Shown: one piece after another, positions 1 through 24,733 of the stretch
Layout: each line of letters opens with the position of its first letter
Position numbering within the stretch: position 1 is the first letter of the stretch
From: a virus
IMG/VR virus record: IMGVR_UViG_3300042389_000098
Location: 1 to 26,378 of that record
Length of the DNA stretch: 26,378 nt
Strand: one strand, 5' to 3'
Position numbers and translations under genes: made by a program
Notes under the pieces: generated by a model
Database searches by the model: none
What the model was told of the DNA's origin: nothing
The model's input: the letters and a program-made list of their open reading frames with translations, nothing else

Positions 1-347
1 CTCCGAAGTACTACGCGCTGTTTGGTCCTGACTCAGGCAACCCGACGGAGTTGACCTTTATCCTTGGCCCGACGCCTAGTGCCAATCTGTCAACAGAATT
101 GCACTACTTCTACTACCCGGTCAGTATTGTCACTGCCGGTACGTCTTGGTTGGGCGACAACTTTGAGTCCGTGCTGGTCAATGCGGTGCTGGTTGAAGCT
201 GCTCGGTTCATGAAGCAAGAGCCTGACATCGTGGCCGAGACGGACAAGCAGTACGTGCAGTCCCTGACGCTGCTGAAGAACCTGGGTGATGGTAAAAATA
301 GGATGGACGCATACCGTAACGGACAGTTGAGAACGCAGGTGATTTAA
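1..347 (+). CDS. Putative head-tail adaptor protein, C-terminal fragment
   Basis: The frame is open from the left edge (first full codon at 3), so this is the 3' end of a longer gene; the TTG at 51 is only an internal codon. The visible part starts PKYYALFG, then has an LGPTP turn and aromatic-rich beta segments, and then a helix containing LVEAARFMKQEPDIV. From memory this pattern is typical of the C-terminal half of phage adaptor proteins (T7 gp11/P22 gp4-like), which join the portal to the tail. Its position before other tail genes fits that role. The stop TAA shares one base with the ATG of the HNH gene (TAATG), so the two are translationally coupled or the HNH gene was inserted exactly here. 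The family call rests on remembered pattern only. Confidence 0.6.
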   Translation, partial: PKYYALFGPDSGNPTELTFILGPTPSANLSTELHYFYYPVSIVTAGTSWLGDNFESVLVNAVLVEAARFMKQEPDIVAETDKQYVQSLTLLKNLGDGKNRMDAYRNGQLRTQVI

Positions 348-976: not shown

Positions 977-1402
977 ATGCCTATCTCTCAAGCAATGTGC
1001 TCCTCGTTTAAGCAGCAGCTTTTCCTGGGTGAACACGACCTTGACACTGACACTATCAAGATGGCGCTGTATATCTCTGCTGCCACGCTGGACGCCTCAA
1101 CGACCGTCTACAGCACCTCTAACGAGGTGAGCAGTTCCGGGACCAATTACACCGCAGGTGGCAACACGCTGACTGGTGCGACGGTATCTCTGAGTGGCAC
1201 GACGGCATTCGTAGATTTTGCGGACACCTCGTGGGCTAGCGCGGCCTTTACGGCCCGTGGTGCGCTGATCTACAACAGTAGCAAGAGCAACAAGGCTATT
1301 GCGGTGCTGGACTTTGGTTCAGACAAGACTTCGACCAGCGGCACATTCACGGTGCAGATGCCTGCCAATACTGCTTCTGATGCGTTGATCCGTATTGCGT
1401 AA
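977..1402 (+). CDS. Small putative virion structural protein (141 aa)
   Basis: This 141-aa Thr/Ser/Gly/Ala-rich protein is likely beta-structured. It starts at ATG 977 with an AAGGA Shine-Dalgarno at 966-970 that overlaps the stop of the HNH gene. The N-terminal part reads FKQQLFLGEHDL followed by TIKMALYISAATLDAST, and the middle has NEVSSSGTNYTAGG. Small proteins with this 'ALY...A.L...T..Y....EV...GYTAGG' pattern are common in structural modules of environmental and Burkholderiales phages; I remember the pattern but not a named family. Its role is probably a minor tail or decoration protein, inferred from the neighbourhood. No catalytic motif or membrane segment is visible. Confidence 0.75.
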   Translation: MPISQAMCSSFKQQLFLGEHDLDTDTIKMALYISAATLDASTTVYSTSNEVSSSGTNYTAGGNTLTGATVSLSGTTAFVDFADTSWASAAFTARGALIYNSSKSNKAIAVLDFGSDKTSTSGTFTVQMPANTASDALIRIA

Positions 1403-1855: not shown

Positions 1856-3481
1856 ATGGCAAACACATTCAAGAAAGTCATTGACACGTTGGTATGGCGG
1901 CAAGTTCCGCCTATGCCAAACGCACACGCTGCTGCGGTGGCGGTGTGTAGCGACCTGCGCAATGACATTTCTCGCAATCCGTTTGTCTACCAGTTGGTTT
2001 CGGCAGCAATCCTGAACCGCTACAACATCATCACCAAAGGCTCCGCGTTTGCGGTGAACCCTGGTCTTGGTGGTACGTTTGGTGCGGGTGCTGCATGTGC
2101 TTTTATACCTTCGTTTGGTCTTGTGGGCACGATTGCTGCGGGAGCAACGACAACCTCCGTAACGCTGACCACCGCACTGCCCACGGCTGTAGGTGTGAAC
2201 ATGCTCGCCAATCGGGGCGGTTCTGGAGAGTACGGCTACAAGCTGCGTATCATTGATAACGGCGTTGGCGGGTCGGGTAAGACGGCTGAGCGATACATCA
2301 CAGGCAACACGGCAAGCACAACTCCCGTTATCACGGTGTTGTCGGCGTTTGGCTTTACGCCGGTCAGCGGTTCGCGCTACGAAATTGTTGCAGGCCGAGT
2401 GGCAATGTTGTCGGCAGGTACGCTTGCTGCAACTTCATGGCGGTCGTTTGAAGTTGCAACGAATACGCTTGCGTCAATGACGCAAACCAACCTTCCCGCA
2501 ACCATCGGCACGGACTCAAGCCTGATGGTGCTGGATGAGCAGTATGTTCCTTTTAACAATTCTCCCGGCGACGGGATGATCAAGGGGGCGTACAACTACG
2601 ACACAGGGGTTGTTTCTCGTTACGCTTTGACTGCCACAGCTACGGCAGCAGGCACGCTGACAGGCCAAGCAACACTGGGCGATGCCGTTGTTTTGGCGAA
2701 CGAGTACCGGAATTTCCAGATCCGGGTCGTTGAAGACACAACGAACGTCACGGCGGTTGGGCAGCGGCGCATCATTGCTTCGCACACAGCAGGCCCGAGC
2801 CCTGTCTACACGCTTGGCACCAATTGGACGGTGACGCCTTCGGCAACGGCCAAGTACGTCATTGAGCTACCCAACCTGTGTCTGCTACGTTCGTCTGCAA
2901 CCACCACGGTGTACACGTACAACTACACCGATGCGACCATCAACAACGGCACCAACAATATTGTTGCCAACGCTTGGAGCACAGCGTACTTCGGCGCGGC
3001 TACTGCTGCGAATGCTGCGGGTGGAATGTGGGCACCCTCATGGGGAATTGAACCGGATCAAAACAGGTACGGTCGGCAGTCGTTCTGCTACTTCTTCCGA
3101 GGCGGCGCGGCAACGCTGGATGTGCTGGACATTGCAGGAGCAATCGCGGGCACTTGGACTGCCGCGATAACCTATGACGGATCGCCCGGAGCGCTGCCCG
3201 CTACGGGGTCGGGTGGGTGTTACAGCCCGTTTGATAACGAAGGGCGCATGTTCTACATGAACCTGTATGTAGCATCGCAGATTAGTCAGATTTATCGGTT
3301 TGACGTAGAAAACCGAGTGCTGTCTGTGTTTACTCCAACAGACTTCTTGCAGTCAGGTGCTGCAGCACTGGGGAATCGAGTGGCTTGCTACTGCGCCATC
3401 GACGGCACGGACACTTACGACACGGTGTTTTTGCAGTCTCATCTTTCCACGGTCGCACAAGAATGTGTGGTGCTGGTATGA
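1856..3481 (+). CDS. Putative tail/virion structural protein (541 aa)
   Basis: This 541-aa, Thr/Ala/Gly/Asn-rich protein has no enzymatic motif. The N-terminus (KKVIDTLVWRQVPPMPNAHAA) is helical; the rest is a succession of short beta strands with Gly/Asn turns, many Tyr/Phe/Trp, and a late segment (GIEPDQNRYGRQSFCYFFRGG) that looks like a blade of a beta-propeller. The length and composition suit a tail or receptor-region structural protein, which is an inference. The start ATG follows the previous stop directly, with an AAGGA about eight bases upstream. The last bases form ATGA with the next gene, so the 54-aa protein is probably coupled to it. Confidence 0.75.
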   Translation: MANTFKKVIDTLVWRQVPPMPNAHAAAVAVCSDLRNDISRNPFVYQLVSAAILNRYNIITKGSAFAVNPGLGGTFGAGAACAFIPSFGLVGTIAAGATTTSVTLTTALPTAVGVNMLANRGGSGEYGYKLRIIDNGVGGSGKTAERYITGNTASTTPVITVLSAFGFTPVSGSRYEIVAGRVAMLSAGTLAATSWRSFEVATNTLASMTQTNLPATIGTDSSLMVLDEQYVPFNNSPGDGMIKGAYNYDTGVVSRYALTATATAAGTLTGQATLGDAVVLANEYRNFQIRVVEDTTNVTAVGQRRIIASHTAGPSPVYTLGTNWTVTPSATAKYVIELPNLCLLRSSATTTVYTYNYTDATINNGTNNIVANAWSTAYFGAATAANAAGGMWAPSWGIEPDQNRYGRQSFCYFFRGGAATLDVLDIAGAIAGTWTAAITYDGSPGALPATGSGGCYSPFDNEGRMFYMNLYVASQISQIYRFDVENRVLSVFTPTDFLQSGAAALGNRVACYCAIDGTDTYDTVFLQSHLSTVAQECVVLV

Positions 3482-3645: not shown

Positions 3646-4461
3646 ATGCTGCTTACCCTGCTCCAATCTGCGGGGGCAGGGCCTGTCGTTGTTTTAGCGA
3701 CGGGGGTTCAAGCCACTGGACAGGTAGGAAACGTTGTTGCTACAGGCAACGCGCTTGTCCTTCTTACGGGCGTCCAGGCCACCGGGCAACTGGGGGCGGT
3801 AGAGGTTACAGGCGGCGCTGTTGTTGGCGTCACAGGCGTTCAAGCTACAGGCCAAGTCGGTACTGCCTCCGTCACCGGCACCGCGTTAGTTTCTGTCTCA
3901 GGTGTAAGTGCCACGGGCCAGATTGGCACTGTTGCAGCATCTGGCACTGCGGTTGTTGAAGTAGCCGGAGTTCAGACCACCGGGCAAGTTGGCGCAGTAA
4001 CTGTAGCTATCGGTGCACTTGCTACACCCACTGGGGTTCAGGCGACCGGGCAAATCGGCACGGTTACTGCAACCGGCACGGCGTCGGTCACGGTTCTTGC
4101 AGCGGGAGTTCAAGTCACCGAGCAAATCGGGACAGTTGTAGTAGCGCTCGACGCGCTGGCAATTTTGTCGGGAGTCCAGGCTCAAGGCTTTGTCGGCACA
4201 GTCACGGTCGCGGGCAGCGCTACCATAGTTCCCACTGGCGTTCAAGCCCTTGGACTGGTAGGATACGTAAAAGCCTTTTCTCATGACTGGGCCCCTGTGC
4301 CCACACCGCAGGTTCCTGACTGGGGGGTGGTGAGTGACACGCAAACACCGGGATGGACCGCAGCGGGAACAAGTCAAACGCCGGGATGGGCGGTAGTGCC
4401 CGACACGCAAGCCCCTGCATGGGCGCAGACCTCTAACACCCAGTCTCCGAACTGGAACTAA
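3646..4461 (+). CDS. Repeat protein: nine 22-aa GVQATGQ units plus five 11-aa Trp units (271 aa)
   Basis: Almost the whole 271-aa protein is repeats. Nine units starting with GVQATGQVG or a variant begin at residues 20, 42, 64, 86, 108, 130, 154, 176 and 198; the period is exactly 22 except for one unit of 24. From residue 215 the pattern changes to W-x10-W with Trp at 215, 226, 237, 248, 259 and 270, an exact 11-residue period with a T-Q-x-P-x-W core, ending in Asn. The first array alternates Val/Ala-rich strands with Gly turns and suits a beta-helix or fibrous fold. Its position between a structural protein and the S74 fibre suggests a fibre or adhesin component, which is an inference. A GGAG about nine bases upstream supports ATG 3646. 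No signal peptide is evident. Confidence 0.8.
   Translation: MLLTLLQSAGAGPVVVLATGVQATGQVGNVVATGNALVLLTGVQATGQLGAVEVTGGAVVGVTGVQATGQVGTASVTGTALVSVSGVSATGQIGTVAASGTAVVEVAGVQTTGQVGAVTVAIGALATPTGVQATGQIGTVTATGTASVTVLAAGVQVTEQIGTVVVALDALAILSGVQAQGFVGTVTVAGSATIVPTGVQALGLVGYVKAFSHDWAPVPTPQVPDWGVVSDTQTPGWTAAGTSQTPGWAVVPDTQAPAWAQTSNTQSPNWN
3703..4287 (+). repeat. 66-bp (22-codon) imperfect repeats, nine units
   Basis: Nine in-frame units each encode a GVQATGQ-like start followed by a V-rich strand and a TG turn. The unit boundaries fall every 66 bp (one is 72 bp). The conservation is at protein level; the DNA units have diverged at third positions, for example ggggttcaagccactgga versus ggcgttcaagctacaggc. 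This points to an old expansion kept by selection on the protein. Confidence 0.88.
4288..4455 (+). repeat. 33-bp (11-codon) Trp repeat, five units
   Basis: Six Trp codons (TGG) are spaced exactly 33 bp apart from 4288. The unit consensus is W-x-x-x-x-x-T-Q-x-P-x. It follows the 22-codon array directly, so two unrelated repeat types make up one protein. Confidence 0.88.
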
Positions 4462-4464
4462 ATC

Positions 4465-6057
4465 ATGCCTTCATATTCCACCAATCTTCGTTTGATTCAG
4501 CCTTCTGTTGGGGAATACCCTGGGAGTTGGGGCACTGAAGTCAACAACAGTTTGACTGCGCTAGTCGATAGAGCCATTGCGGGTACGGCAAACATCACGA
4601 TGACAGCGGGCAACTACACGCTGAACAACGCTAACGGCGTGGATGACGACGGCAAGGCCATGTTCCTTGTATTGGGTGGAACGCCGGGGGCTGCGTATCA
4701 AGTCATTTGCCCAGCCATCAGTAAGCTGTACTTCGTGACCAACAGCACGGGGTTTGCTCAGACGGTCAAGACTGCTGCTGGTTCGGGCATCTCCGTCCCC
4801 AACGGGGCTTCCATGACGCTGCGGTGTGATGGCACCAATGTGGTTAACGCAATGGACCGCTTCCTGTTTACTTCGGGGTCTGCGGCGCTCCCGTCCATTG
4901 CGGTCAATGGCGACACCGATACGGGCATGTGGGCCCCTGCAGCCAACACGCTGGCGTGGAGCAATAACGGCGCAGAGACGATGCGTCTCGACGCGTCCGG
5001 CAGCCTCGGGATTGGGACGAGTTCGCCTGCACAAAGATTGGACGTCTCTGGGGCACAAAATTCTGTGCAGGCCCGGTTTGGAAATGTTGCGGGGCGTGGT
5101 CTGGAAATATCGACGGCTCTGATTGCTGGCACTAACGACGCTGGAAGCGTTTTGAACGCAAAAGGCGCTACTTCAGGGACACTAATTTTCCAGACTGACA
5201 GCACCGAGCGCATGCGCCTCGACGCCACCGGCAACCTCGGCTTGGGGGTGACGCCGAGTGCTCAGGGCGTTTATCGAACAATGCAGTTCGGCAACTACCT
5301 GACCATTGGTCAGCAAACAACTGGTACTTCACAGTCGTTCTTTGGCTGGAATGTACGTGGTAGCTCCACTGCAAACCAATATCTTTACAACGTAACCGCA
5401 GACAAGGCAGCGCTCTACGAAATAGTTTCCGATGCCTCTCACCGCTGGTCTGTCACAAACACATCCGGCACCGCAGGCAACGCGATCACTTTCACGGAAG
5501 CGATGAGGCTGGATGCTTCCGCCAACCTGCTGGTGGGCTTGGCAAGCCCCACGTTCGTCAGCACTCGGACTGAAATCCTTGCAGCAACAAACAACAACGC
5601 CTTGGGTGCCAAGACGACGCAGAACAACTATGCGCCGCTGATGGCATGGAACAGCGCAACCACGGGCGACAACCTGTTCCAGTATTTCTACACGGAAGGC
5701 ACGCTCACGCTGCGGGGCTCCATCGACTACAACCGCGCTGGCGGGCTGGTCCGATACAACACCACCTCCGACTATCGCGCCAAGGACATCCTCGGGCCTG
5801 TTGCTGATCCCGGCGCAACCATCGACGCGCTGAAGGTCTACGAAGGCCGGATGAAGGGCGCAACGCAGTCCCGTCCGATGCTGGTGGCGCATGAGGCGCA
5901 GGAAGTTACCCCCTACGCGGTCAGCGGCGTCAAGGATGAGGTCAACGAGGACGGCACGCCGAAGTTCCAGCAGATCGATGTGTCCTCGCTGGTGCCGCTT
6001 CTGCTGGCCGAAATCCAAACGCTGCGCGCCCGCGTGGCTGCACTGGAGCAAGCATGA
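4465..6057 (+). CDS. Tail fibre/spike with C-terminal S74 self-cleaving chaperone domain
   Basis: This is a 530-aa protein. The N-terminus (STNLRLIQPSVGEYPGSWGT) is a virion-attachment type leader common to phage fibres. The middle carries three copies of an E-x-MRLDA-x-G-x-L-x-x-G element, with MRLDA at residues 173, 250 and 347. The C-terminal 100 residues match the intramolecular chaperone (Peptidase_S74) family: S435-D-Y-R-A-K440 gives the Ser/Lys dyad, followed by VAHEAQEV and a terminal coiled coil (LLAEIQTLRARVAALEQ). In known members the domain trimerises the fibre and then cuts itself off in front of the catalytic Ser, so about 96 residues would be released here. The fibre should bind the host receptor. 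The stop overlaps the next start (ATGA). Confidence 0.9.
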   Translation: MPSYSTNLRLIQPSVGEYPGSWGTEVNNSLTALVDRAIAGTANITMTAGNYTLNNANGVDDDGKAMFLVLGGTPGAAYQVICPAISKLYFVTNSTGFAQTVKTAAGSGISVPNGASMTLRCDGTNVVNAMDRFLFTSGSAALPSIAVNGDTDTGMWAPAANTLAWSNNGAETMRLDASGSLGIGTSSPAQRLDVSGAQNSVQARFGNVAGRGLEISTALIAGTNDAGSVLNAKGATSGTLIFQTDSTERMRLDATGNLGLGVTPSAQGVYRTMQFGNYLTIGQQTTGTSQSFFGWNVRGSSTANQYLYNVTADKAALYEIVSDASHRWSVTNTSGTAGNAITFTEAMRLDASANLLVGLASPTFVSTRTEILAATNNNALGAKTTQNNYAPLMAWNSATTGDNLFQYFYTEGTLTLRGSIDYNRAGGLVRYNTTSDYRAKDILGPVADPGATIDALKVYEGRMKGATQSRPMLVAHEAQEVTPYAVSGVKDEVNEDGTPKFQQIDVSSLVPLLLAEIQTLRARVAALEQA

Positions 6058-15919: not shown

Positions 15920-16039
15920 ATGCCGATCTACAGCATTCAAGGCCCTGATGGCACCATCTACGAGATTGAAGGCCCAGAGGGCGCTACCAAGGCTCAAGTT
16001 GTAGCGGCTGTTCAAGCAAAGATGCGGGCTCCTGAGCCC
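15920..16039 (+). other. N-terminal GPDG-x-x-Y-x-I-x-GPEGAT module of the giant protein
   Basis: Residues 1-40 form two short strands with paired GP turns (IQGPDG and EGPEGAT) and then a helix (AQVVAAVQAKM). This module recurs at the N-terminus of large internal proteins in environmental phages, as remembered. It may be a packaging or sorting signal that brings the protein into the capsid; that role is a guess. Confidence 0.55.
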
Positions 16040-19000
16040 GCGTTGCAACCTCGACCCGTCATTGAGCCTCCCAAGAAAGAAGGTCTTGGTGCGGCGTTTG
16101 GCAAAGGGCTGGAGAGCTTGCTGGGATCTAGCCGCACTGCCATTGGCGCGTTTACAGGATCTCCTGAAGAAGCTGCCCTGGCTGCTCTGGAGAGGCAGAA
16201 GCAGTCTCCCTACGCCGACCAAGTCAGCTTAGAGAAGGTCTCAGAGGCCGCTAAACGAGGCCTGCTGCCCGCCGCTGGTGAGGTGGCTAGGCAGGTGCCC
16301 CTGGCTATCATGGAGCAGGCTCCGAACGTCCTGGCAACACTTGGTTCTGCAAAGGCTGGCTCTTTGCTTGGCGCAAAGCTGGGGACGGCTGTCGCGCCGG
16401 GAGTCGGTACAGCAATTGGCGGTATCGGTGGCGGCATCTTTGGTGCAATTGCACCGTCTTTGCTCCAGCAGTTTGGCGGGAATATCCAGCGTCAAGCCCA
16501 AGAGCAGCAAGCTCAAGGCAAGCCCATCGACATCAGCAGGACATCAGCAGGCTTGGCTGCTGTGCCCCAGGCAGGTCTTGATGTTGCTGCATCTCTGATC
16601 CCCTTGGGCAGGACGTTTGCTGGCAAAGTTCTAGGCCCGCAAGTTGAAGAACTGTTGAAACGCGGGGCAGTTGAAGGCGCAGAGCGTTTAGCTCGTGAGA
16701 GCCTGCCCACTGTGTTGGGCAAGGGTGCTGCGATCAGCATCGCTACTGAAGTCCCGACCGAAGTTATCCAGACCATGCTTGAGCGTTCTCAGGCTGGTCT
16801 TGCCCTGACCACCCCAGATGCTTTAGCTGAGTATGGCAATGTGGCCTACCAAGCTGGTCTGCTTGCGCCTATTGGTGCTGTGGGTCGTGTGGGTGAGCGT
16901 GCTGCAGCGCGGAATGAAGCTCTCCTGCCCGGTCAACGCCGTGGTGAGTCCGATATGGACTTCGCCAACCGGCTGAGTCAAGAGATCGGGAATGATCGTG
17001 CTTATGTTGCAATGCAACAAGCAGAGCAGGCAGAAGCGGCAAAGCGTCAAGCTGCGCTGGAAGAGATGAAAAAAGCCATCGGGGATGGCTTGCTAACGCC
17101 CGAAGTGATTAAACAGTGGGGCTTTGGGAAAGGCTCCATCTTTGATTCTCTGGTCAACAAGAACCTAAGCAATCCTGAAGATGCGTCCTTTGTGGCCGAT
17201 GTCTTGTCCGCTTATCGGTCTAAGGCTCATCCCAATACGCAGGTCAAGATTGATGATGCGCTGGCTGGCATTGAGGCCATGTTTGGTGCCAAGCCAACCC
17301 CGCAAACTGAAGGAGCAGCAGATGTTGGAACGGCTATCACCGAACCAAGTGGAGCGGGCGTTCAAGTGGCTGGCGAGCCCAGTGCAGGAGCCGCCACCCC
17401 AAGACTTGGAGCCCCTGAACCAGCAGGAGTGGTTCCTCCTGTCGCGGATGTTGGACAACCTGCTGGAGGAGCAGAAGCAGCACCGCCTGCAGTAGCTGCG
17501 CCTGTTGTTGAGCCTGTCGCTGCAGAGCCAAAGACAGAAAAACAAAAGGTGCTCGACACGCTTGCATTCTTGAACTTGCAGAACACGCAAGCACAGCAAA
17601 TATCCATCAGTGGTCTGACGGAAGACCAGAAGATCTCTTTTGAGGGCGACCCGCGTAGAGCAAAAGGAGGCGCAAAGGCTCTTCTTGATACCGTCAACGC
17701 GGCAATGGCTCTCAAGATCTCTCCTGCGGAGATCGTAGAAGCAGCCATGTCTCGGCTCAAGCCAGCAGAGGCTGCGCCAGTGACGGAGCCCGCTGCTGTT
17801 GCTCCGCCAGTAACCACGCCTGTTGCAACTGTTCAAACGCCTGAGACTGAAACGCAGGCCAAGGAGCAGCACGCGGTCCAAGGTCTGCCCATCATTGAGG
17901 CTCCGCTTGATCAACTGACGCTGTCCAAGGATGTGCCTCAGTTTAAGAGTGACGCGGACGAGAAGGGCGTTGTGGAGAAGCTGGGCGGCAAGTTTGACCG
18001 TACCGGTGTTGCTCCCATTCAAGTGTGGCGCAGGACTGATGGCCGGATGGAGGTCATCTCTGGCCGTCACCGTCTTGATCTTGCTCAGCGCAGTGGTGAA
18101 GCAACCATCCCTGCCCAGATTCATGACGAGGCCCAAGGCTTTGATGCCAAGCGGGCTGCAATGCTGGATGCAGAACTAAACATCCGCGACCAACAAGGCA
18201 AGGTTAAGGACTATGTCAACTACTTCGAAAACGCAGGAATCAGCCAAGCAGATGCCGACGCAAGAGGTCTTCTGGCGCGGCCTCCGGGGCGGCAAGGGTT
18301 CGCAATCGCAACCCAAGGAAGCCCAGACCTCATTGCCTCCCATCGTGCCAATGTCGTCAATGACGCAGAAGCCTTCGGCATCGCAAGCGCAGCCCCAGGC
18401 GATGCCCGCCTCCAAGCCTTAGGCATCAAAGCCGTCAGCGACGGCAAGAATGTAAACGGCGCTGTGAACATGATGAAGGCGGTCAAGGCATTGGCCGCTG
18501 AGCGTGGTGTCACCGAAGATGCTGGTGACCTCTTTGGCTTTGATGACAGCGCTATGCGCGAAGCTGAAGAGATGGCAAAGATTGCCTCTCGCAAGCAGTC
18601 CGAGGTGGCTAATCGCCTTTCTGCTATCTCCGGTGCCAGCAAGCGCCCGGAAGTTGCCAAGAAGGAAGGCATTGACATCAAAGATCCCGAGGCGTTGAAA
18701 CGCAGGGAAAAGGAACTGCGTCAGCAGAAGGCATCCTGGGACAACTGGTCGAGCAGTTCAGAGTTGATTCACGAGATCAAGGCTGAGATGGTCAAGCCCT
18801 CGTTGGCTGAAGCTGCACCAGAAGCACTGCCCATCACGCCCGAGATACAGGAAAAGATTGATCAACTTGAGAAGGTTCTCAAGAAGATCATGAACAAGTT
18901 TGGCCTGAAGGATGTCGCTCTCAAGCTGATCGACAACATGAAGGCAGAAGGCGAGTACGCACAGAGCGTGGTTCGTCTGGCCCTGGATGCTGTAAACCCG

Positions 19001-22000
19001 GTTCAGGCCTTGAGGCATGAATCCATCCATGCTCTGAAAGAACTGGGCTTCTTCTCGCCCCAGCAATGGGCAGTGCTTGAGAAGCAGGCCAAGAGCAAGT
19101 GGATCGATCAGTACCTCAAGACCAAGAACATCAACAAGGAAGACCTAGAGGAGGGCCAAAAGTCCCGCTATGACGCATACATGGAGCTTTACAAGGGCGA
19201 CATGGACGCGATCATTGAAGAGGCTATTGCGGACGCCTTTGGAGACTTTGATGTAAACAAGGCTCCTCCGGGCCTGATGCAAGCCATCCTGACCCGGCTG
19301 CGTAACTTCTTTGATGCGGTCAAGACTGCCTTTGGTGGCGAGGTAACCGCAGAGCAAGTGTTCCGCAAGGTTGAGAAGGGTGCGCTGAAGGCGGAAACCA
19401 AGGCAGAAGCTGCCCCGGCTAAACAAAGTTTGCGTGAAGTTCCTCTGTCCACTCGTGGGTTGATGGAAGTTCAGCCCATCGTAGCGATGCAAGAGCTTGG
19501 GCTTAAAACAGATGCTGTCCGCAAGCCGGGTGGCATTGAGTTGTTTAACGATGTCCGCTCCATCGCTCTTGCGCTTAACCAAGACACCATCCGAAACAAG
19601 GGAAAGATCGCCAAGACCGATACCTCATTGACCTCTGAAAAAGAACTTGCCAGGGCAATGGTTGATGAGATTGGCTACCAGCTAAAGGCAACTGCAGGGA
19701 CTGGCACGGGCAAAGGTTGGTACTCGGACAACTATCCCAAGGCAGTTAAGAAGCTGGGCAAGTTGTTCCCAGAGCTTGAGACAGATCCATATGCAAGAAC
19801 TGTTTTCTCTGCCTTGGTTGCCATTACCTCCAATGGAGAGAAGGTATCTCTCAACGTAAAGAACGCTATTAAGCTCTACGAAGACATTCGTATGGGCAAA
19901 GACCCGCGCAATATTGGGTCTCGTCGCAAAACTGCGCTAGACAACAACATCGCAGTTGTCCTGCAGTTAATGAAGCAATATGGTCCAACTGGAATGCGCA
20001 ATGAGTTGTTGCGTGAGATTACAGTTAAGGACATGAACGCTATTCTGCGTTCACGCGGAGAAAAGCCCGACACCTCTTATCTTGCAGATACCAAAGTACC
20101 TGCTGCTGCCTTGTATTTCGGGCCAAAGCTGGGCGCATTCTTCTCCAATCTGGAAGGGGCAGAGGGCTATCTGACAATGGATATGTGGTGGACCCGGACG
20201 GTCAACCGCATGCGTGGGCAGTTGGAATCAAAGGCCACCGAGGCATCCATCAAGAAGTTTGCCGCGATGATGGGTAAGCCCAATGCCACCCGAGATGAAG
20301 TGGTGGCAGCAACCATTCCTCTGCGTAACAAGTACGAAGAGTTTGGCTGGCACACAGAACTAGAAGAGTTGGTGGGCCGCAAAGAGCCAGCAGAAGACAA
20401 GGACAAGCCAGCCTGGACCGCAAGGGCGAAGCGGCAAGCTGGCCCCGCATATGAGGCTCTTCTGTTTGAACACCGTCTTGAGAAGATGGCTAACACCATC
20501 TACAAGAACGAGTACGAGTTGCTGGAAGAGGCTCCGTTTACACCAAGCGACCGAGAGTTCATGTACCGAACGGCTAGGCGGACTCAGAGTTTGCTCAAGG
20601 CCGAAGGTGTCAACCTGTCACTAGCAGACATCCAGGCCGCTCTCTGGTACTACGAGAAGCGCCTGTATCAACATTTGAGTGGAAGGAAAGCAGATGACAT
20701 CGGATACGACGAAGCCATCACCCAACTCGCAGGGGAAAGTACTCGACCCGCAGGACCCTCTGTGGTCTTCGCTGGACAACCTGTTTCTGGGGCTGGAGCC
20801 GCAGGAGCGGGCGCAGCAGTTGCTGGAGTTAGTGCGCAGCCTGCCCAGCCAAAGCCAAGCCTTCGCATAGTTGGTCAGCCTGCCACACGCGGTAATGTGG
20901 TTGCTGCAATGGAAAAAGCGCAGGAACTACAGCCGTACATAAATTGCCAGTTGTGCGTGCAAATAGCAACCGGGACTCCCAATTTGTTGAGGTTGCCAAA
21001 AGTTAAAACAGCGACAGTTGGCGATGTTTACACATTCAACGAACGCCAAGATATGGCGTCTCATTACGCTATCGATATTGGCGCTGGCGATGTAATTGAG
21101 GTGGAGGCCTGGGGGGAACCTGTCCGTGTCGTTCCGTTGGCTAATGTTGTTGCCGAGTACGATCAGCCAAGCTCTATTCGCCGCCCTCCTATGACGGCTT
21201 ACAGCAAGCAGGCATTTGTAAAACCCAGCCTGCGCTCTACAGAGAAAGAAAAAGCCGCTCAGGATTGGATAAACAAAGTCTACGAGCCTCTGCCTCGCAA
21301 CCCCATGAACCCTCGTCAACGTGTGATGATGTTTGGGGAAGAGGAAATGGCTTTGCTTGAGCTTGGTCCAAGTGGAGTTAACCCTGGCGCTGTTGAGATC
21401 AAATGGTTCCAGGCATATCCTCTTCGGTCTGGCGTCGGCACCAAGGCTATGCGAGAACTGCAGCAGATGGCTGCCGATGAAAACATTACGCTCGACCTAT
21501 TTGCGTGGGACAAGGGAAATGTCAGCCAAGCCAAGCTGATCAAGTTCTACAAGTCAGTTGGATTTAAGTCCGCCCAGGGTCGTGGAAATATGATTTGGCA
21601 GCCTGACGGCGAAGTGACTCGCCGCAGTGAGCCAGATGGAGGAGTAAAGCCAAGCCTGCGTGATGCCTCTTGGACTCCAAAAAGAATTGATTTCCTCATT
21701 GAGGACCAGGGGTATACGGACGGCAAAACCAAAGGGTTTGCCGCCTTTATCGATCCCAAGGATTTCGTCCGCGCAACCACATCTAGCAAGGAACAGTACC
21801 AGAGCATCTTTGATGAGGCTGGCCCTCTGCGCGAAGAAGACTTGCGCAGGCCAACAGAGCCTCCGCGTTTATTCATAAGCGAAGATTGGAAAATCACGGG
21901 CCACGAGGGTCGGCATCGGATGGCGGCAATGGCTGCTTCTGGTGTGACTCGTGCTCCCGTTTTCCTTAAGCTACTTCGTGGAGAGCAGCGCTCTGAGCAT

Positions 22001-24733
22001 GACTTCAAAACGCTTTCTGGACAGAAGTTTGATGATGGTGCTGGTTCATCAGTTGTAGTCTCAGACCTGACTCCGTTGAACTATGAAAACAGAGCCCTGC
22101 TTAATGAGCGTTTTGGTGGCGAAGCCAAGGTTAAGTACAGCCTTCGTGTAAACATCCCGGCAAGCGCACGCGCACGGGTTGTTGCCACCATTGCCTCCCG
22201 GCAAGAGAAGGGCTTTGTTGAACGCCTCATGGAGGCGATCTCTCCAACGTCCTACTCCGACTTCCGTGCCCAAGCTCTGAACCGTTACAACCAACTTGGT
22301 GTTTACGACAAGATCCGCGCCAAGAAGATGGGTGGTGCTGCGCTGCTTGCTGATTCCAGCGCTGAGTCTGCTGCCCTGCTGTCTGACCTGGGTGCTGGTC
22401 TAACCGCTTCCGCGCTGGGTGTGCATGATCGGATGGGGGGCATTCCTGTGTTCAGGAACGGCATCACCATCATCAGCAACCAGAACGGCACGATCAAAGG
22501 GCCAACCGCGATCTTTGCCCCGTTGGCTGCTGATCCGGCTCATTATCAGGACTATCAGTTCTGGGCTGGCGTGAAGCGTGGTTCGCGCTACATGCAAAAC
22601 CCACAAGGCAAGTACGAAGAGAAACTGTTTACACCATCAGACGTCAAAGAGGCGGAAGTAATTCGCAAGGCATACCTCAAGGCGGGGATTGACTTTGAGG
22701 CCATGCAAAAGGAGTGGATCAAGTACAACGACGGTCTTGTTCAGTACATGGTCGATACCGGCGTGCTCTCAAAGGAGCGTGCTGACCTGTACCGTAAACA
22801 CGCAGACTATCTGCCCTTCTATCGGCAGATGGACGGCAGAGAAACCATTGGCCCGAAGGTTTTTCAAGCTATTTCTGGTGTTAAGCCACCCAAGGCAGCT
22901 AAGGGTGGAGAGGCCTTAATTGATGACTTTTTGGAAAACATCGTCCGTAATACGCAAGCTGCTATCCAAGCTGGCGTTAAGAATGTCGCAGCCCAAAGAG
23001 CCGCCAAGGTGGCTATGGACATCGGCATGGCATCGCGGCTGGGCTTCAAGTCCTCCGCAGCCGGAACCTTTGATGTTCTGGAGAACGGTCAGGTTGTCAC
23101 ATACCAAGCCAAGGACGAGCTTTTCATCAACGCCATCAAGAGCCTTGGTATTCCTGACCTGCCGTTTATAGGACTGTTGTCTGGCCCCGCGAACTTGCTT
23201 CGCAATCTGGTAACCAAAGACCCAGGCTTCATGCTTGCCAACCTGATGCGTGACTCAATGTCTGCATGGGTTACCTCCGGCGTGAAGATGACCCCGATGG
23301 TAAACACCTTCACCAACTTTGGTGCTGCTATCGCAGGCAAAGACCCGGCCTTCCAAGCTCTGATGAACGCAGGCATCTTGGGCGGCTATGAGTTCTCACA
23401 GAACGTGGAGCAGAGCGGGCGTGAGTTCGGCAAGGCTCTGAGGAAGCAAGCCAAGATCAAGTCCACCGGGCTCAAGGGTGTAGCAGAGATGGGCGCTAAA
23501 CCGTTTACATCTCTGTGGGATGCGCTGGAGAAAGGTTCCACTGCATCTGACGCAGCTACCCGGATGGAGGTCTACAAGCGCACGCTGGCCGAGACCAACA
23601 ACGAAGCAGAAGCCCTGTTTAGAGCGCTTGAGGTGATGAACTTCAACCGTAAAGGATCTTCCGCCGTGGTAAGAATTCTTACTGCTGCGGTCCCGTTCTT
23701 AAACGCACGTATGCAGGGCCTGGATGTTCTGTACCGCGCAGCTTCGGGGCAGATGAACGCTCGTGATGCGGCGCAGATCCAGAAGCAGTTCTTTGTGCGC
23801 GGCGCAATGATTGCATCCTTGTCTGCCGCTTACTGGTTGCTGACTCATGACGATGAGGAATACAAGAAGCAGGAGCAGGAGACAAGAGACAACTACTGGC
23901 TTCTTCCTTCGCTGGGCGTCAAGATCCCGATCCCCTTTGAAATCGGTGTGCTGTTCAAGGTAATCCCTGAGCGCATCCTTGGGTACACATTTGGCAGCGA
24001 CACGGGAGAAGACTTCTTGAAGTCGATGGCTCGTCAGTTGACCAGCACCCTTGCGTTTAATCCAATCCCGCAGGCGGTCATGCCTCTTGTGGAAACAACG
24101 ACCAACTTCTCCTTCTTCACCATGCGCCCAATTGTTGGGCAGGGCCTGGAGGGGCTGCAACCTGCGTACCAAGTTGGGCCGGGTACGTCTCGTCTGGCAG
24201 AAGGCTTAGGAGAGATGACCAAGGGGATGGCAAAGGAGTTGCAAGTCTCCCCAATGAAGATCGATCAGTTGATCAGCGGGTACACCGGCACGATGGGCAT
24301 GTATCTGATGAACCTGATGGATGCCGTTTACGACATGAACACGGACTCGCCCAAGCCTGCCAGAAGGTTTGAGCAGATGCCTCTGATCCGTCGCTTTGCA
24401 ATTGATCCTGAGGCCCGTGGAAACGTCACTGCGTACTACGAACTCAAGAACTCGGTGGACTCCATCGTCCGCACCTCCAACATGCTTGAGAGGACGATGA
24501 ACTACGAGGAGTTGCCCGGTTACCTGATGGACAACATGCGGATGTTGGCCTCCAAGGATTACATCCTTGATCTTGAGAAGACCATGAAGGAGTTCCGGGA
24601 GATGAAGATCCTGATCCGCTCAGCTTCTATGGATGCAGATGCCAAGAAGGACGCCATCCTGGCAATCGATCAGATGGAAAACCAATTGACATCCAACATC
24701 CAGTACATGAAGAAGCTGGCTAAGGGAGACTGA
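15920..24733 (+). CDS. Giant polyvalent internal virion protein (2937 aa)
   Basis: A single 2937-aa frame with many domains, of the type named polyvalent proteins in phages and conjugative elements, which are thought to enter the host with the DNA. In order: an N-terminal IQGPDGTIYEIEGPEGAT motif (6-23); a Gly/Ala hydrophobic region (135-182); a disordered A/P/G linker (about 455-540); a ParB-like domain (655-860); a HExxH metallopeptidase (985-1150); an uncharacterised helical domain (1173-1590); an NlpC/P60-like domain (1650-1760); a GNAT domain (1773-1895); a second ParB-like segment (1912-2065); and a LPD38-like C-terminal region (2100-2760) with one hydrophobic helix near 2624-2643. Modules from 959 on are bounded by K-x-S-L-R tags. 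The gene ends 14 bases inside the convergent nuclease gene. Domain functions are inferred from motifs. Confidence 0.9.
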   Translation: MPIYSIQGPDGTIYEIEGPEGATKAQVVAAVQAKMRAPEPALQPRPVIEPPKKEGLGAAFGKGLESLLGSSRTAIGAFTGSPEEAALAALERQKQSPYADQVSLEKVSEAAKRGLLPAAGEVARQVPLAIMEQAPNVLATLGSAKAGSLLGAKLGTAVAPGVGTAIGGIGGGIFGAIAPSLLQQFGGNIQRQAQEQQAQGKPIDISRTSAGLAAVPQAGLDVAASLIPLGRTFAGKVLGPQVEELLKRGAVEGAERLARESLPTVLGKGAAISIATEVPTEVIQTMLERSQAGLALTTPDALAEYGNVAYQAGLLAPIGAVGRVGERAAARNEALLPGQRRGESDMDFANRLSQEIGNDRAYVAMQQAEQAEAAKRQAALEEMKKAIGDGLLTPEVIKQWGFGKGSIFDSLVNKNLSNPEDASFVADVLSAYRSKAHPNTQVKIDDALAGIEAMFGAKPTPQTEGAADVGTAITEPSGAGVQVAGEPSAGAATPRLGAPEPAGVVPPVADVGQPAGGAEAAPPAVAAPVVEPVAAEPKTEKQKVLDTLAFLNLQNTQAQQISISGLTEDQKISFEGDPRRAKGGAKALLDTVNAAMALKISPAEIVEAAMSRLKPAEAAPVTEPAAVAPPVTTPVATVQTPETETQAKEQHAVQGLPIIEAPLDQLTLSKDVPQFKSDADEKGVVEKLGGKFDRTGVAPIQVWRRTDGRMEVISGRHRLDLAQRSGEATIPAQIHDEAQGFDAKRAAMLDAELNIRDQQGKVKDYVNYFENAGISQADADARGLLARPPGRQGFAIATQGSPDLIASHRANVVNDAEAFGIASAAPGDARLQALGIKAVSDGKNVNGAVNMMKAVKALAAERGVTEDAGDLFGFDDSAMREAEEMAKIASRKQSEVANRLSAISGASKRPEVAKKEGIDIKDPEALKRREKELRQQKASWDNWSSSSELIHEIKAEMVKPSLAEAAPEALPITPEIQEKIDQLEKVLKKIMNKFGLKDVALKLIDNMKAEGEYAQSVVRLALDAVNPVQALRHESIHALKELGFFSPQQWAVLEKQAKSKWIDQYLKTKNINKEDLEEGQKSRYDAYMELYKGDMDAIIEEAIADAFGDFDVNKAPPGLMQAILTRLRNFFDAVKTAFGGEVTAEQVFRKVEKGALKAETKAEAAPAKQSLREVPLSTRGLMEVQPIVAMQELGLKTDAVRKPGGIELFNDVRSIALALNQDTIRNKGKIAKTDTSLTSEKELARAMVDEIGYQLKATAGTGTGKGWYSDNYPKAVKKLGKLFPELETDPYARTVFSALVAITSNGEKVSLNVKNAIKLYEDIRMGKDPRNIGSRRKTALDNNIAVVLQLMKQYGPTGMRNELLREITVKDMNAILRSRGEKPDTSYLADTKVPAAALYFGPKLGAFFSNLEGAEGYLTMDMWWTRTVNRMRGQLESKATEASIKKFAAMMGKPNATRDEVVAATIPLRNKYEEFGWHTELEELVGRKEPAEDKDKPAWTARAKRQAGPAYEALLFEHRLEKMANTIYKNEYELLEEAPFTPSDREFMYRTARRTQSLLKAEGVNLSLADIQAALWYYEKRLYQHLSGRKADDIGYDEAITQLAGESTRPAGPSVVFAGQPVSGAGAAGAGAAVAGVSAQPAQPKPSLRIVGQPATRGNVVAAMEKAQELQPYINCQLCVQIATGTPNLLRLPKVKTATVGDVYTFNERQDMASHYAIDIGAGDVIEVEAWGEPVRVVPLANVVAEYDQPSSIRRPPMTAYSKQAFVKPSLRSTEKEKAAQDWINKVYEPLPRNPMNPRQRVMMFGEEEMALLELGPSGVNPGAVEIKWFQAYPLRSGVGTKAMRELQQMAADENITLDLFAWDKGNVSQAKLIKFYKSVGFKSAQGRGNMIWQPDGEVTRRSEPDGGVKPSLRDASWTPKRIDFLIEDQGYTDGKTKGFAAFIDPKDFVRATTSSKEQYQSIFDEAGPLREEDLRRPTEPPRLFISEDWKITGHEGRHRMAAMAASGVTRAPVFLKLLRGEQRSEHDFKTLSGQKFDDGAGSSVVVSDLTPLNYENRALLNERFGGEAKVKYSLRVNIPASARARVVATIASRQEKGFVERLMEAISPTSYSDFRAQALNRYNQLGVYDKIRAKKMGGAALLADSSAESAALLSDLGAGLTASALGVHDRMGGIPVFRNGITIISNQNGTIKGPTAIFAPLAADPAHYQDYQFWAGVKRGSRYMQNPQGKYEEKLFTPSDVKEAEVIRKAYLKAGIDFEAMQKEWIKYNDGLVQYMVDTGVLSKERADLYRKHADYLPFYRQMDGRETIGPKVFQAISGVKPPKAAKGGEALIDDFLENIVRNTQAAIQAGVKNVAAQRAAKVAMDIGMASRLGFKSSAAGTFDVLENGQVVTYQAKDELFINAIKSLGIPDLPFIGLLSGPANLLRNLVTKDPGFMLANLMRDSMSAWVTSGVKMTPMVNTFTNFGAAIAGKDPAFQALMNAGILGGYEFSQNVEQSGREFGKALRKQAKIKSTGLKGVAEMGAKPFTSLWDALEKGSTASDAATRMEVYKRTLAETNNEAEALFRALEVMNFNRKGSSAVVRILTAAVPFLNARMQGLDVLYRAASGQMNARDAAQIQKQFFVRGAMIASLSAAYWLLTHDDEEYKKQEQETRDNYWLLPSLGVKIPIPFEIGVLFKVIPERILGYTFGSDTGEDFLKSMARQLTSTLAFNPIPQAVMPLVETTTNFSFFTMRPIVGQGLEGLQPAYQVGPGTSRLAEGLGEMTKGMAKELQVSPMKIDQLISGYTGTMGMYLMNLMDAVYDMNTDSPKPARRFEQMPLIRRFAIDPEARGNVTAYYELKNSVDSIVRTSNMLERTMNYEELPGYLMDNMRMLASKDYILDLEKTMKEFREMKILIRSASMDADAKKDAILAIDQMENQLTSNIQYMKKLAKGD
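16322..16465 (+). other. Gly/Ala-rich hydrophobic segment of the giant protein
   Basis: Residues about 135-182 are almost free of charge, with GAKLGTAVAPGVGTAIGGIG and GGIFGAIAPSLLQQFGG. Such glycine-zipper stretches in ejected phage proteins are candidates for membrane insertion or oligomer packing. Activity is not shown by sequence alone. Confidence 0.55.
17311..17315 (+). promoter_or_regulatory. Internal Shine-Dalgarno for nested gene A
   Basis: AGGAG within the giant coding region, six bases before ATG 17322. The spacing is optimal and lies in the frame-shifted linker, so it is not explained by a conserved protein motif of the giant frame. Confidence 0.6.
17322..17495 (+). CDS. Nested 57-aa gene in the +1 frame of the giant gene (candidate A)
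   Basis: ATG 17322 is preceded by AGGAG at 17311-17315 with a six-base spacer, an excellent ribosome binding site. The 57-aa product (ERAFKWLASPVQEPPPQDLE, then NQQEWFLLSRMLDNLLEE and a basic tail KQHRLQ) has the look of a compact helical protein with a Pro break, three Trp/Phe pairs and an amphipathic C-terminal helix. Small proteins of the form 'AF.WL..P.. ...L..L...EW..L...L..LL.E' occur in other phages as I recall, but I cannot name one. In the giant frame the same bases encode an Ala/Gly/Pro linker (residues about 468-526). The whole gene lies inside the giant gene. No function is assigned. Confidence 0.62.
   Translation: MLERLSPNQVERAFKWLASPVQEPPPQDLEPLNQQEWFLLSRMLDNLLEEQKQHRLQ
17882..18499 (+). 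other. ParB-like nuclease/NTPase-fold domain (first) in the giant protein
   Basis: Residues about 655-860. The opening strand (GLPIIEAPLDQLTLS) is followed by GVAPIQVWRRTDGRMEVISG and the signature S714-G-R-H-R-L-D-L-A, then AELNIRDQQGKVKDYVNYFE. The GRHR element with the preceding strand is the ParB/sulfiredoxin-fold signature; the AELNIRD part is like the ParB domains of polyvalent (DdrB-like) proteins. It may bind nucleotides or nick DNA early in infection; this is inferred from the family. Confidence 0.75.
18872..19369 (+). other. HExxH zinc metallopeptidase domain in the giant protein
   Basis: Residues about 985-1150. H1033-E-S-I-H1037 provides two zinc ligands and the catalytic Glu within RHESIHALKELGFFS. 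E1100/E1101 in IIEEAIADAFGDF is the likely third ligand on a downstream helix. The HESIHAL plus EEAIADAF pair matches the metallopeptidase associated with polyvalent proteins. Substrate unknown; cleavage of the giant protein itself or of a host factor are both possible. Confidence 0.75.
19436..20689 (+). other. Uncharacterised helical domain of the giant protein
   Basis: Residues about 1173-1590 lie between K-x-S-L-R tags 2 and 3 and do not match a family I can name. Distinctive pieces are GTGTGKGWYSDNYPKAV, PYARTVFSALVAITSNGEKV, GAEGYLTMDMWWTRTVNRM and ADIQAALWYYEKRLY. The clustered Trp/Tyr and conserved-looking charged residues suggest an enzyme or nucleic-acid binding fold rather than a spacer. 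Confidence 0.5.
20683..20687 (+). promoter_or_regulatory. Internal Shine-Dalgarno for nested gene B
   Basis: AAGGA six bases before ATG 20694, inside GGAAGGAAAG. It is purine-rich by chance possibilities too, since the giant frame encodes GRK here. Confidence 0.48.
20694..20870 (+). CDS. Nested 58-aa gene in the +1 frame of the giant gene (candidate B)
   Basis: ATG 20694 follows AAGGA at 20683-20687 with a six-base spacer; an in-frame GTG at 20679 is a poorer start. The 58-aa product has a polar N-terminal half (SDTTKPSPNSQGKVLDPQD) and then an amphipathic helical half (WSSLDNLFLGLEPQERAQQL, LELVRSLPS). In the giant frame these bases give the linker between the helical domain and the NlpC/P60-like domain, including a GAGAAGAGAAVAG run and tag 3. 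The relative frame is the same as for nested gene A. The composition is protein-like, but the ORF is short and no family is recognised. Confidence 0.5.
   Translation: MTSDTTKPSPNSQGKVLDPQDPLWSSLDNLFLGLEPQERAQQLLELVRSLPSQSQAFA
20867..21199 (+). other. NlpC/P60-like cysteine peptidase domain in the giant protein
   Basis: Residues about 1650-1760. An N-terminal helix carries N-C1676-Q-L-C1679-V, followed by VGDVYTFNERQDMASH with H1715, then YAIDIGAGDVIEVEAWGEPV. The order Cys on a helix, GDV strand, S-H-hydrophobic strand and G-x-G-x-V-I-E strand is that of NlpC/P60-like peptidases, which often cut peptidoglycan stem peptides. The domain is short and the family call is tentative. In an ejected protein it could help breach the cell wall. 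Confidence 0.5.
21236..21604 (+). other. GNAT acetyltransferase domain in the giant protein
   Basis: Residues about 1773-1895. The acetyl-CoA binding motif A is visible as IKWFQAYPLRSGVGTKAM, with R1836-S-G-V-G1840 matching R-x-x-G-x-G. A helix, the strand ITLDLFAWD and the motif B region KLIKFYKSVGF follow. It would acetylate an amine on a protein or small molecule. The substrate is unknown; host protein modification is a guess from the polyvalent context. Confidence 0.78.
21653..22114 (+). other. Second ParB-like (GRHR) segment of the giant protein
   Basis: Residues about 1912-2065. The core is LFISEDWKITGHEGRHRMAA with H1995-E-G-R-H-R2000, then SGVTRAPVFLKLLRG. The GHEGRHR turn and helix resemble the ParB/sulfiredoxin-fold signature, as in the first domain, but the upstream part (FAAFIDPKDFVRATTSS) is different. 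Sequence similarity to the first copy outside the turn is low, so it is not a recent duplication. Confidence 0.55.
22217..24199 (+). other. LPD38-like C-terminal region of the giant protein
   Basis: Residues about 2100-2760. Landmarks are HADYLPFYRQMDG, DPGFMLANLMRDSMSAWVTS (from 2434), EVMNFNRKGSSAVVR (around 2574), AVPFLNARMQGLDVLYRA, a hydrophobic helix from 2624 (GAMIASLSAAYWLL) and NYWLLPSLGVKIPIPFEIG. The series recurs at the C-terminus of very large phage proteins and is known as large polyvalent protein-associated domain 38, as I recall. It probably supports assembly in the capsid or passage through the envelope. Confidence 0.6.

Follow-up and report, generated by a model that had tools for sequence, protein, structure and literature searches.

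A phage-borne family of 22-residue repeat proteins ending in aromatic arrays of mostly four or six members, candidates for an optional tail fibre stalk

Results

Layout of the locus and repeat arithmetic

The window, by which we mean the whole stretch of viral DNA analysed here (26,378 nucleotides, positions 1 to 26,378 of IMG/VR record IMGVR_UViG_3300042389_000098), contains a gene for a repeat protein, hereafter the stalk gene, whose parts and main neighbours are as follows.

3..347, + strand: adaptor protein fragment (SU10_adaptor, PF24175; from Pfam), conserved upstream neighbour
977..1402, + strand: phrog_644 protein, function unknown, conserved upstream neighbour (PHROG match and relatives' loci)
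3646..4461, + strand: stalk gene with its W array, 271 aa (open reading frame list and relatives)
3646..3702, + strand: N-terminal 19 residues (MLLTLLQSAGAG...), from the sequence
3703..4287, + strand: array of nine 22-residue units, the sixth of 24 residues and the ninth incomplete, with two predicted beta-strands per unit
4033..4104, + strand: the 24-residue unit, which breaks the exact period
4273..4287, + strand: AFSHD, about four residues beyond most relatives between the last unit and the first W (17 vs 13)
4288..4458, + strand: aromatic array, six W at 11-residue spacing, at the extreme C-terminus
4465..6057, + strand: tail fibre gene with a conserved N-terminal domain (GE-x2-G-x-WG motif; phrog_18345 and other tail fiber PHROGs)

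The first-pass annotation had described the protein as nine GVQATGQVG units, with an exact period of 22, running straight into five W-x5-TQ-x-P-x units. Nine units, of GV(Q/S) type, were indeed found, starting at 3703, 3769, 3835, 3901, 3967, 4033, 4105, 4171 and 4237, and the ninth does run into the W array, but because the sixth unit has 24 residues the 22-residue period is not exact throughout. The six W residues, all between residues 215 and 270 and spaced by 11, 11, 11, 11 and 11, delimit five complete 11-residue units; these carry PQVP, TQTP, SQTP, TQAP and TQSP, so that Q-x-P is present in all five while TQ occurs in only three, and the consensus is Q-x-P rather than TQ-x-P. Identities at lag 22 in the window protein numbered 79 compared to 24.1 after shuffling (s.d. 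4.4; 2000 shuffles), and those at lag 11 in its W part 18 compared to 4.5 (s.d. 2.0). Within the 22-residue array no excess was seen at lag 11 (23 observed vs 25.8 shuffled).

The earlier view that the DNA has diverged under a protein period maintained by selection was borne out. Tandem Repeats Finder reported no array at the stalk gene in the window DNA, and base identity between pairs of window units ranges between 44 and 64%. Across relatives, with 31 non-overlapping pairs out of 148 pooled, dN/dS was 0.20 for the 22-residue array and 0.17 for the W tail, which indicates purifying selection; in the comparison of the window with its relative L002 the values were 0.22 for the 22-residue array and 0.66 for the W tail, the latter based on nine differences only.

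Relatives of the putative stalk protein

The stalk family is large, uncharacterised and phage-borne. A protein scan of IMG/VR with the window protein as query confirmed 343 related stretches, scans with two divergent relatives found 286 and 36, and a scan with an alignment of the family (A1, in which 15 of the 57 listed relatives were left out) found at least 503; no more than 80 relatives per scan were taken into the sequence sets, and a further alignment, A2, excludes L003 and L065. Before counting, 3'-open reading frames were dropped, as were copies identical over the last 150 or 200 residues. In bacterial genomes the stalk protein had a single match, in a contig titled as a Dehalococcoidia MAG (L393), which could be a prophage or mis-binned phage. 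No convincing match of the window protein was found in Pfam, PHROG or PDB, and the search of the PDB by sequence returned nothing relevant. Weak matches to phrog_11583, a group of unknown function, were seen for 13 of 42 relatives (best E 8.6e-06) and not for the window protein. A literature search on the repeat, the W strings and the family, conducted outside subscription journals, found no description.

As the first-pass annotation had proposed should be compared, the repeats are kept in homologues, and their number varies from 4 to 28 units per protein (regular-expression count, 195 distinct 3'-closed reading frames). Across 60 distinct proteins taken from the first set, gaps between unit motifs equalled 22 in 506 of 589 cases (gaps of 8 and 14 reflect a second motif match within one unit) and W gaps equalled 11 in 228 of 239; in the 195 reading frames, 592 of 613 W gaps were 11. 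The first W lies 13 residues past the G of the last unit in 138 of 181 arrays and 35 residues past it in 31, the latter corresponding to one undetected 22-residue unit (169/181 at 13 or 35); in the window the array begins at 17, four residues later than in most relatives. The distance from the last W to the protein end is 6 residues in 154 of 181 reading frames. The N-terminal modules are exchangeable among relatives and include the window type (MLLTLLQSAGAG...), a GWG-rich type and LTPALYTNTNTFYSPTV repeats; the FY module has a spacing of mostly 22-23. Two relatives, L083 and L248, end in a different W-rich tail (WNGSAWVQKPLRHWTGTAW type) that replaces the 11-residue array.

Relatives in named phages are DSL-LC04 and, weakly, MW202675. 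WJZ48131.1 of DSL-LC04, a hypothetical protein, has the same layout before a fibre, with 4 W, 11 apart, and 31% identity. Gp68 of Pelagibacter phage HTVC023P, also a hypothetical protein, shares this layout, its three W lying at 11-residue spacing, and was found only via the fibre, and gp68 of HTVC027P has a reduced form of this layout.

Size and alternation of the aromatic array

In spite of the wide variation in the number of 22-residue units, the aromatic array has four or six members in 174 of 195 reading frames. Four aromatics were counted in 111, six in 63, three in 14, two in 4 and one in 3, and five-member arrays in 0 of 195; before counting, seven loci whose first aromatic is Y rather than W had been moved from three to four. 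The median number of 22-residue units is 10 in both four-member and six-member proteins. When array sizes are mapped onto a tree built from the adjoining fibre domain (178 rows and 112 columns, with 65 of the 159 inner branches open), sizes 4 and 6 need 32 exchanges, and the starred branches alone require label 6 to change at least 18 times and label 3 at least 4 times; such counts could be inflated by recombination between the stalk gene and the fibre gene. What is new here, then, is that unit number is variable while array size is mostly four or six and never five, with repeated interchange between these sizes.

A strict even-number law, which held in 55 of 55 cases in the first set, failed in the wider one. 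Arrays of three (14/195) and two (4/195), more of which were found at loci fetched through the fibre, mean that the even numbers represent a bias and not a law. Three seemingly five-member arrays (L314, L316 and L338) turned out to be four W followed by the F of the last 22-residue unit. L038, scored as a two-member array, in fact has two W pairs, separated by an apparently inserted Gly-rich domain of about 300 residues.

Neighbouring 11-residue units alternate. N stands directly before W in 89 of the 178 odd units compared to 11 of the 105 even ones, and over 73 non-redundant proteins its frequency was higher in odd units in 53, lower in 5 and equal in 15. In six-member arrays similarity at lag 22 exceeded that at lag 11, with only 2 of 2000 shuffles as high, whereas no such excess appeared in four-member arrays when whole units were compared (the observed value was reached in 1640 of 2000 shuffles). 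These tests used arrays built wholly of 11-residue units and sharing no more than 70% identity with one another.

Genomic neighbourhood and the survey from the fibre side

The fibre gene starts 3 nt past the stop of the stalk gene, and the stalk gene has adaptor and fibre genes beside it, as a proximal fibre protein would. The N-terminal fibre domain was found at 183 of 192 distinct stalk loci (177 of the 181 that have 400 nt or more downstream), a phrog_644 relative upstream at 145 of the 179 loci with room, and an adaptor-like gene upstream at 110 of 143 with room. Searches of the PDB by sequence returned nothing relevant for the adaptor, and the antibody matches to phrog_644 lay above E 0.05; no fibre domain was found in bacterial genomes. 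Also present in the window are an endonuclease VII-like gene (phrog_1035; 347-967) between the adaptor and phrog_644 genes, a 541-residue protein adjoining the stalk gene (1856-3481), which matched nothing in Pfam or PHROG at E < 0.1 and has relatives at only 6 of the 192 stalk loci, in each case immediately upstream of the stalk gene, and a 2937-residue reading frame that occupies a third of the record (15920-24733), its C-terminal part matching the large polyvalent protein domain LPD38.

Among 83 distinct reading frames upstream of such fibres, a 22-residue array was followed by four W in 31, six in 14, three in 3, two in 5, and a number scored as five, four on inspection, in 3; 6 had a W array with fewer than three detected units, and 21 had neither array. 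At seven further fibre loci the sequence upstream was too short for a judgement. The two-member arrays at fibre loci (L376-L379 and L382) are seemingly genuine. Of the six with fewer than three detected units, L321 and L384 look like diverged 22-residue arrays, and L370 resembles an unrelated enzyme in which the W residues occur by chance.

In the other three (L289, L364 and L369) a W array follows a different repeat stalk and directly precedes the fibre. One of these is L289 (2700-3986), where 20-residue SETATALDSV repeats are followed by twelve W spaced by 11, with the same fibre type downstream. Given that the stalk repeat of L369 has a period of 22, the FY module one of 22-23 and that of L289 one of 20, a shared period of 22, though frequent, is no requirement. 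A search with a narrow, exact DNA pattern for W arrays that lack any other repeat gave two matches, both unrelated low-complexity translations.

Fibres without a stalk also exist. The closest fibres to that of the window often stand directly after phrog_644, as the fibre of CRP-901 does; L287, for example, has a fibre domain 95% identical to the window's with phrog_644 about 9 nt upstream of it, and its 13.5-kb record gave no match to alignment A1. A near-identical fibre domain lacking a stalk means that docking on this domain is not obligatory.

Predicted structure

The AlphaFold2 model (42 sequences) places strand pairs throughout the 22-residue array (for example 27-33, 37-45, 49-55 and 59-67), with pLDDT of about 90 over residues 21-120 and of 65-89 onward to about 210. 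The beta-helix stem that had been envisaged is thus supported by a predicted two strands per unit and by a resemblance to curli-type beta-solenoids. The W array, on the other hand, has pLDDT near 30 in the whole-protein model (residues 219-271), and the C-terminal 96 residues modelled alone, from an alignment of 58 sequences with six-member arrays, gave a mean pLDDT of 58.7 and no secondary structure. Monomer prediction hence yields an ordered 22-residue array and an unfolded W array, so that a beta-stem is supported and the suggested tryptophan cap is unproven. The AlphaFold models of the stalk also disagree among themselves (mean pLDDT 69.4 to 51.3).

Foldseek returned no PDB match at E < 0.001 for the stalk model and two uncultured-phage proteins at E < 0.001 among predicted viral proteins. 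In a second look with VIA-align, CsgA (8c50_A) ranked first (Z 18.5, 242 residues), followed by EtpA (Z 14.4, rmsd 2.9, 207 residues); the predicted strands fit a curli rung, but the rmsd to 8c50_A is 9.7. Over 1457 distinct 22-residue units, the autocorrelation of mean hydropathy is highest at lag 11 (0.52; permutation P 0.04 for lag 11 and 0.06 when all lags between 2 and 11 are considered), while in the window's own units it is only 0.17. With the W unit aligned to the stem in the register that it has in the protein, the two hydropathy profiles correlate at -0.39.

Discussion

We consider it about an even chance that the stalk protein belongs to the virion of short-tailed phages and provides an optional stalk of variable length between the adaptor region and the tail fibre. 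A place between adaptor or phrog_644 and the fibre, a variable number of rungs and a near-constant, portable tip together suggest such a fibre-extending element. The N-terminal module would attach the stalk to the tail, the 22-residue units would stack as a beta-solenoid with two strands per rung, their number, which we showed to vary, setting the reach, and the C-terminal aromatic ladder may form a tip of controlled size, serving either to dock the fibre that follows or to cap the solenoid. Beta-solenoids rise 4.8 A per rung, and nine rungs would accordingly measure about 4 nm and 28 rungs about 13 nm. Several findings weigh against parts of this reading. The W array is unfolded in both predictions and the AlphaFold models disagree; arrays of three and two exist, and four-member arrays lack the lag-22 excess; 21 of 83 reading frames upstream of such fibres had neither array; and the case for docking by the ladder, which we infer, suffers from the existence of fibres that have an almost identical N-terminal domain but no stalk.

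The closest parallel in gene place is phage SU10, whose adaptor bears a two-part long fibre, gp12 being proximal and gp13 distal (PMC9509320). Like gp12, which lies between the adaptor gp11 and gp13, the stalk gene has an adaptor upstream and a fibre directly downstream; unlike in SU10, phrog_644 intervenes, and the likeness is one of gene place. The SU10 gp12/gp13 fibre is described as trimeric, with a coiled-coil part (PMC9509320).

Compatible with a fibre stalk, although on balance we would not bet on it, is the possibility that the W array continues the solenoid, each 11-residue unit being half a rung with its W stacked inside, so that the ladder caps the stem. The phase at which arrays start (169/181 at 13 or 35), the alternating units and the preference for four or six members would fit, as would the Gly-rich insertion tolerated between the W pairs of L038, since solenoid arcs tolerate such insertions, and in curli the half-motifs of one rung are offset by 11 (PMC10192328). 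Low confidence of both models in the W array, a hydropathy pattern that does not match the stem's phase, three-member arrays and the W array placed after 20-residue repeats in L289 argue the other way. The notion that both arrays stack on one structural repeat, 11 being half of 22, gains indirect support from a weak 11-residue pseudo-symmetry in the hydropathy of the 22-residue unit, from the alternation and sizes of the W arrays and from the curli offset, although identities at lag 11 in the window array show no excess.

Somewhat less probable in our opinion is that the missing size of five reflects a mutational habit, two units being duplicated or lost together, and not a structural rule. 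Some six-member arrays do resemble a duplicated pair (L060 compared to L067, for example), but single-unit steps apparently occur (four to three in the L055 lineage), and single 22-residue units are freely gained and lost. We hold with similar reserve that the W tail might be an undescribed portable docking module, a quantised ladder of alternating 11-residue half-rungs that couples stalks of any length to one fibre family; its half-rungs would then be gained and lost mostly as 22-residue pairs.

The protein might instead be a separate adhesin standing beside the fibre and no part of it, its W ladder forming a surface-exposed strip that binds glycans or receptors, a reading we find unlikely. 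Aromatics set at regular intervals on a polar surface are typical of carbohydrate-binding strips; the array is also C-terminal, with 6 residues after the last W in most reading frames (154/181). Receptor-binding tips, however, often vary fast, and a W tail with dN/dS of 0.17, a nearly fixed size and a near-constant linkage to one fibre domain favours a structural partner. Very improbable is that the protein is no part of the virion but an amyloid-like relative of curli that infected cells export, for although CsgA was the top match in the second fold search and pelagiphages carry curli genes (PMC9599517), the stalk gene sits in the tail cluster and no Curlin match (Pfam) was found at E 0.1 in 42 family members or in the window protein.

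The resemblance to CsgA deserves comment in its own right. Like CsgA of Pontibacter korlensis (8c50), the stalk would have stacked repeats of about 22-23 residues with two predicted strands per rung and possible half-motifs 11 apart, and its repeat number varies, as it does in curli, where it ranges from 4 to 62 (PMC10192328). Unlike CsgA, it lies in a phage tail cluster, carries a C-terminal W array and lacks a Curlin Pfam match. No Pfam match to CsgG or CsgF was found among 18 window proteins or pieces, in a record that is possibly incomplete.

This family is common in viral metagenomes and yet has neither name nor function. Its strong preference for arrays of four or six yields a concrete structural prediction, namely that whole 22-residue pairs are the units of the tip. 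Were the protein truly a fibre stalk, these phages would tune the reach of their fibres through the gain and loss of rungs while keeping the size of the tip nearly fixed.
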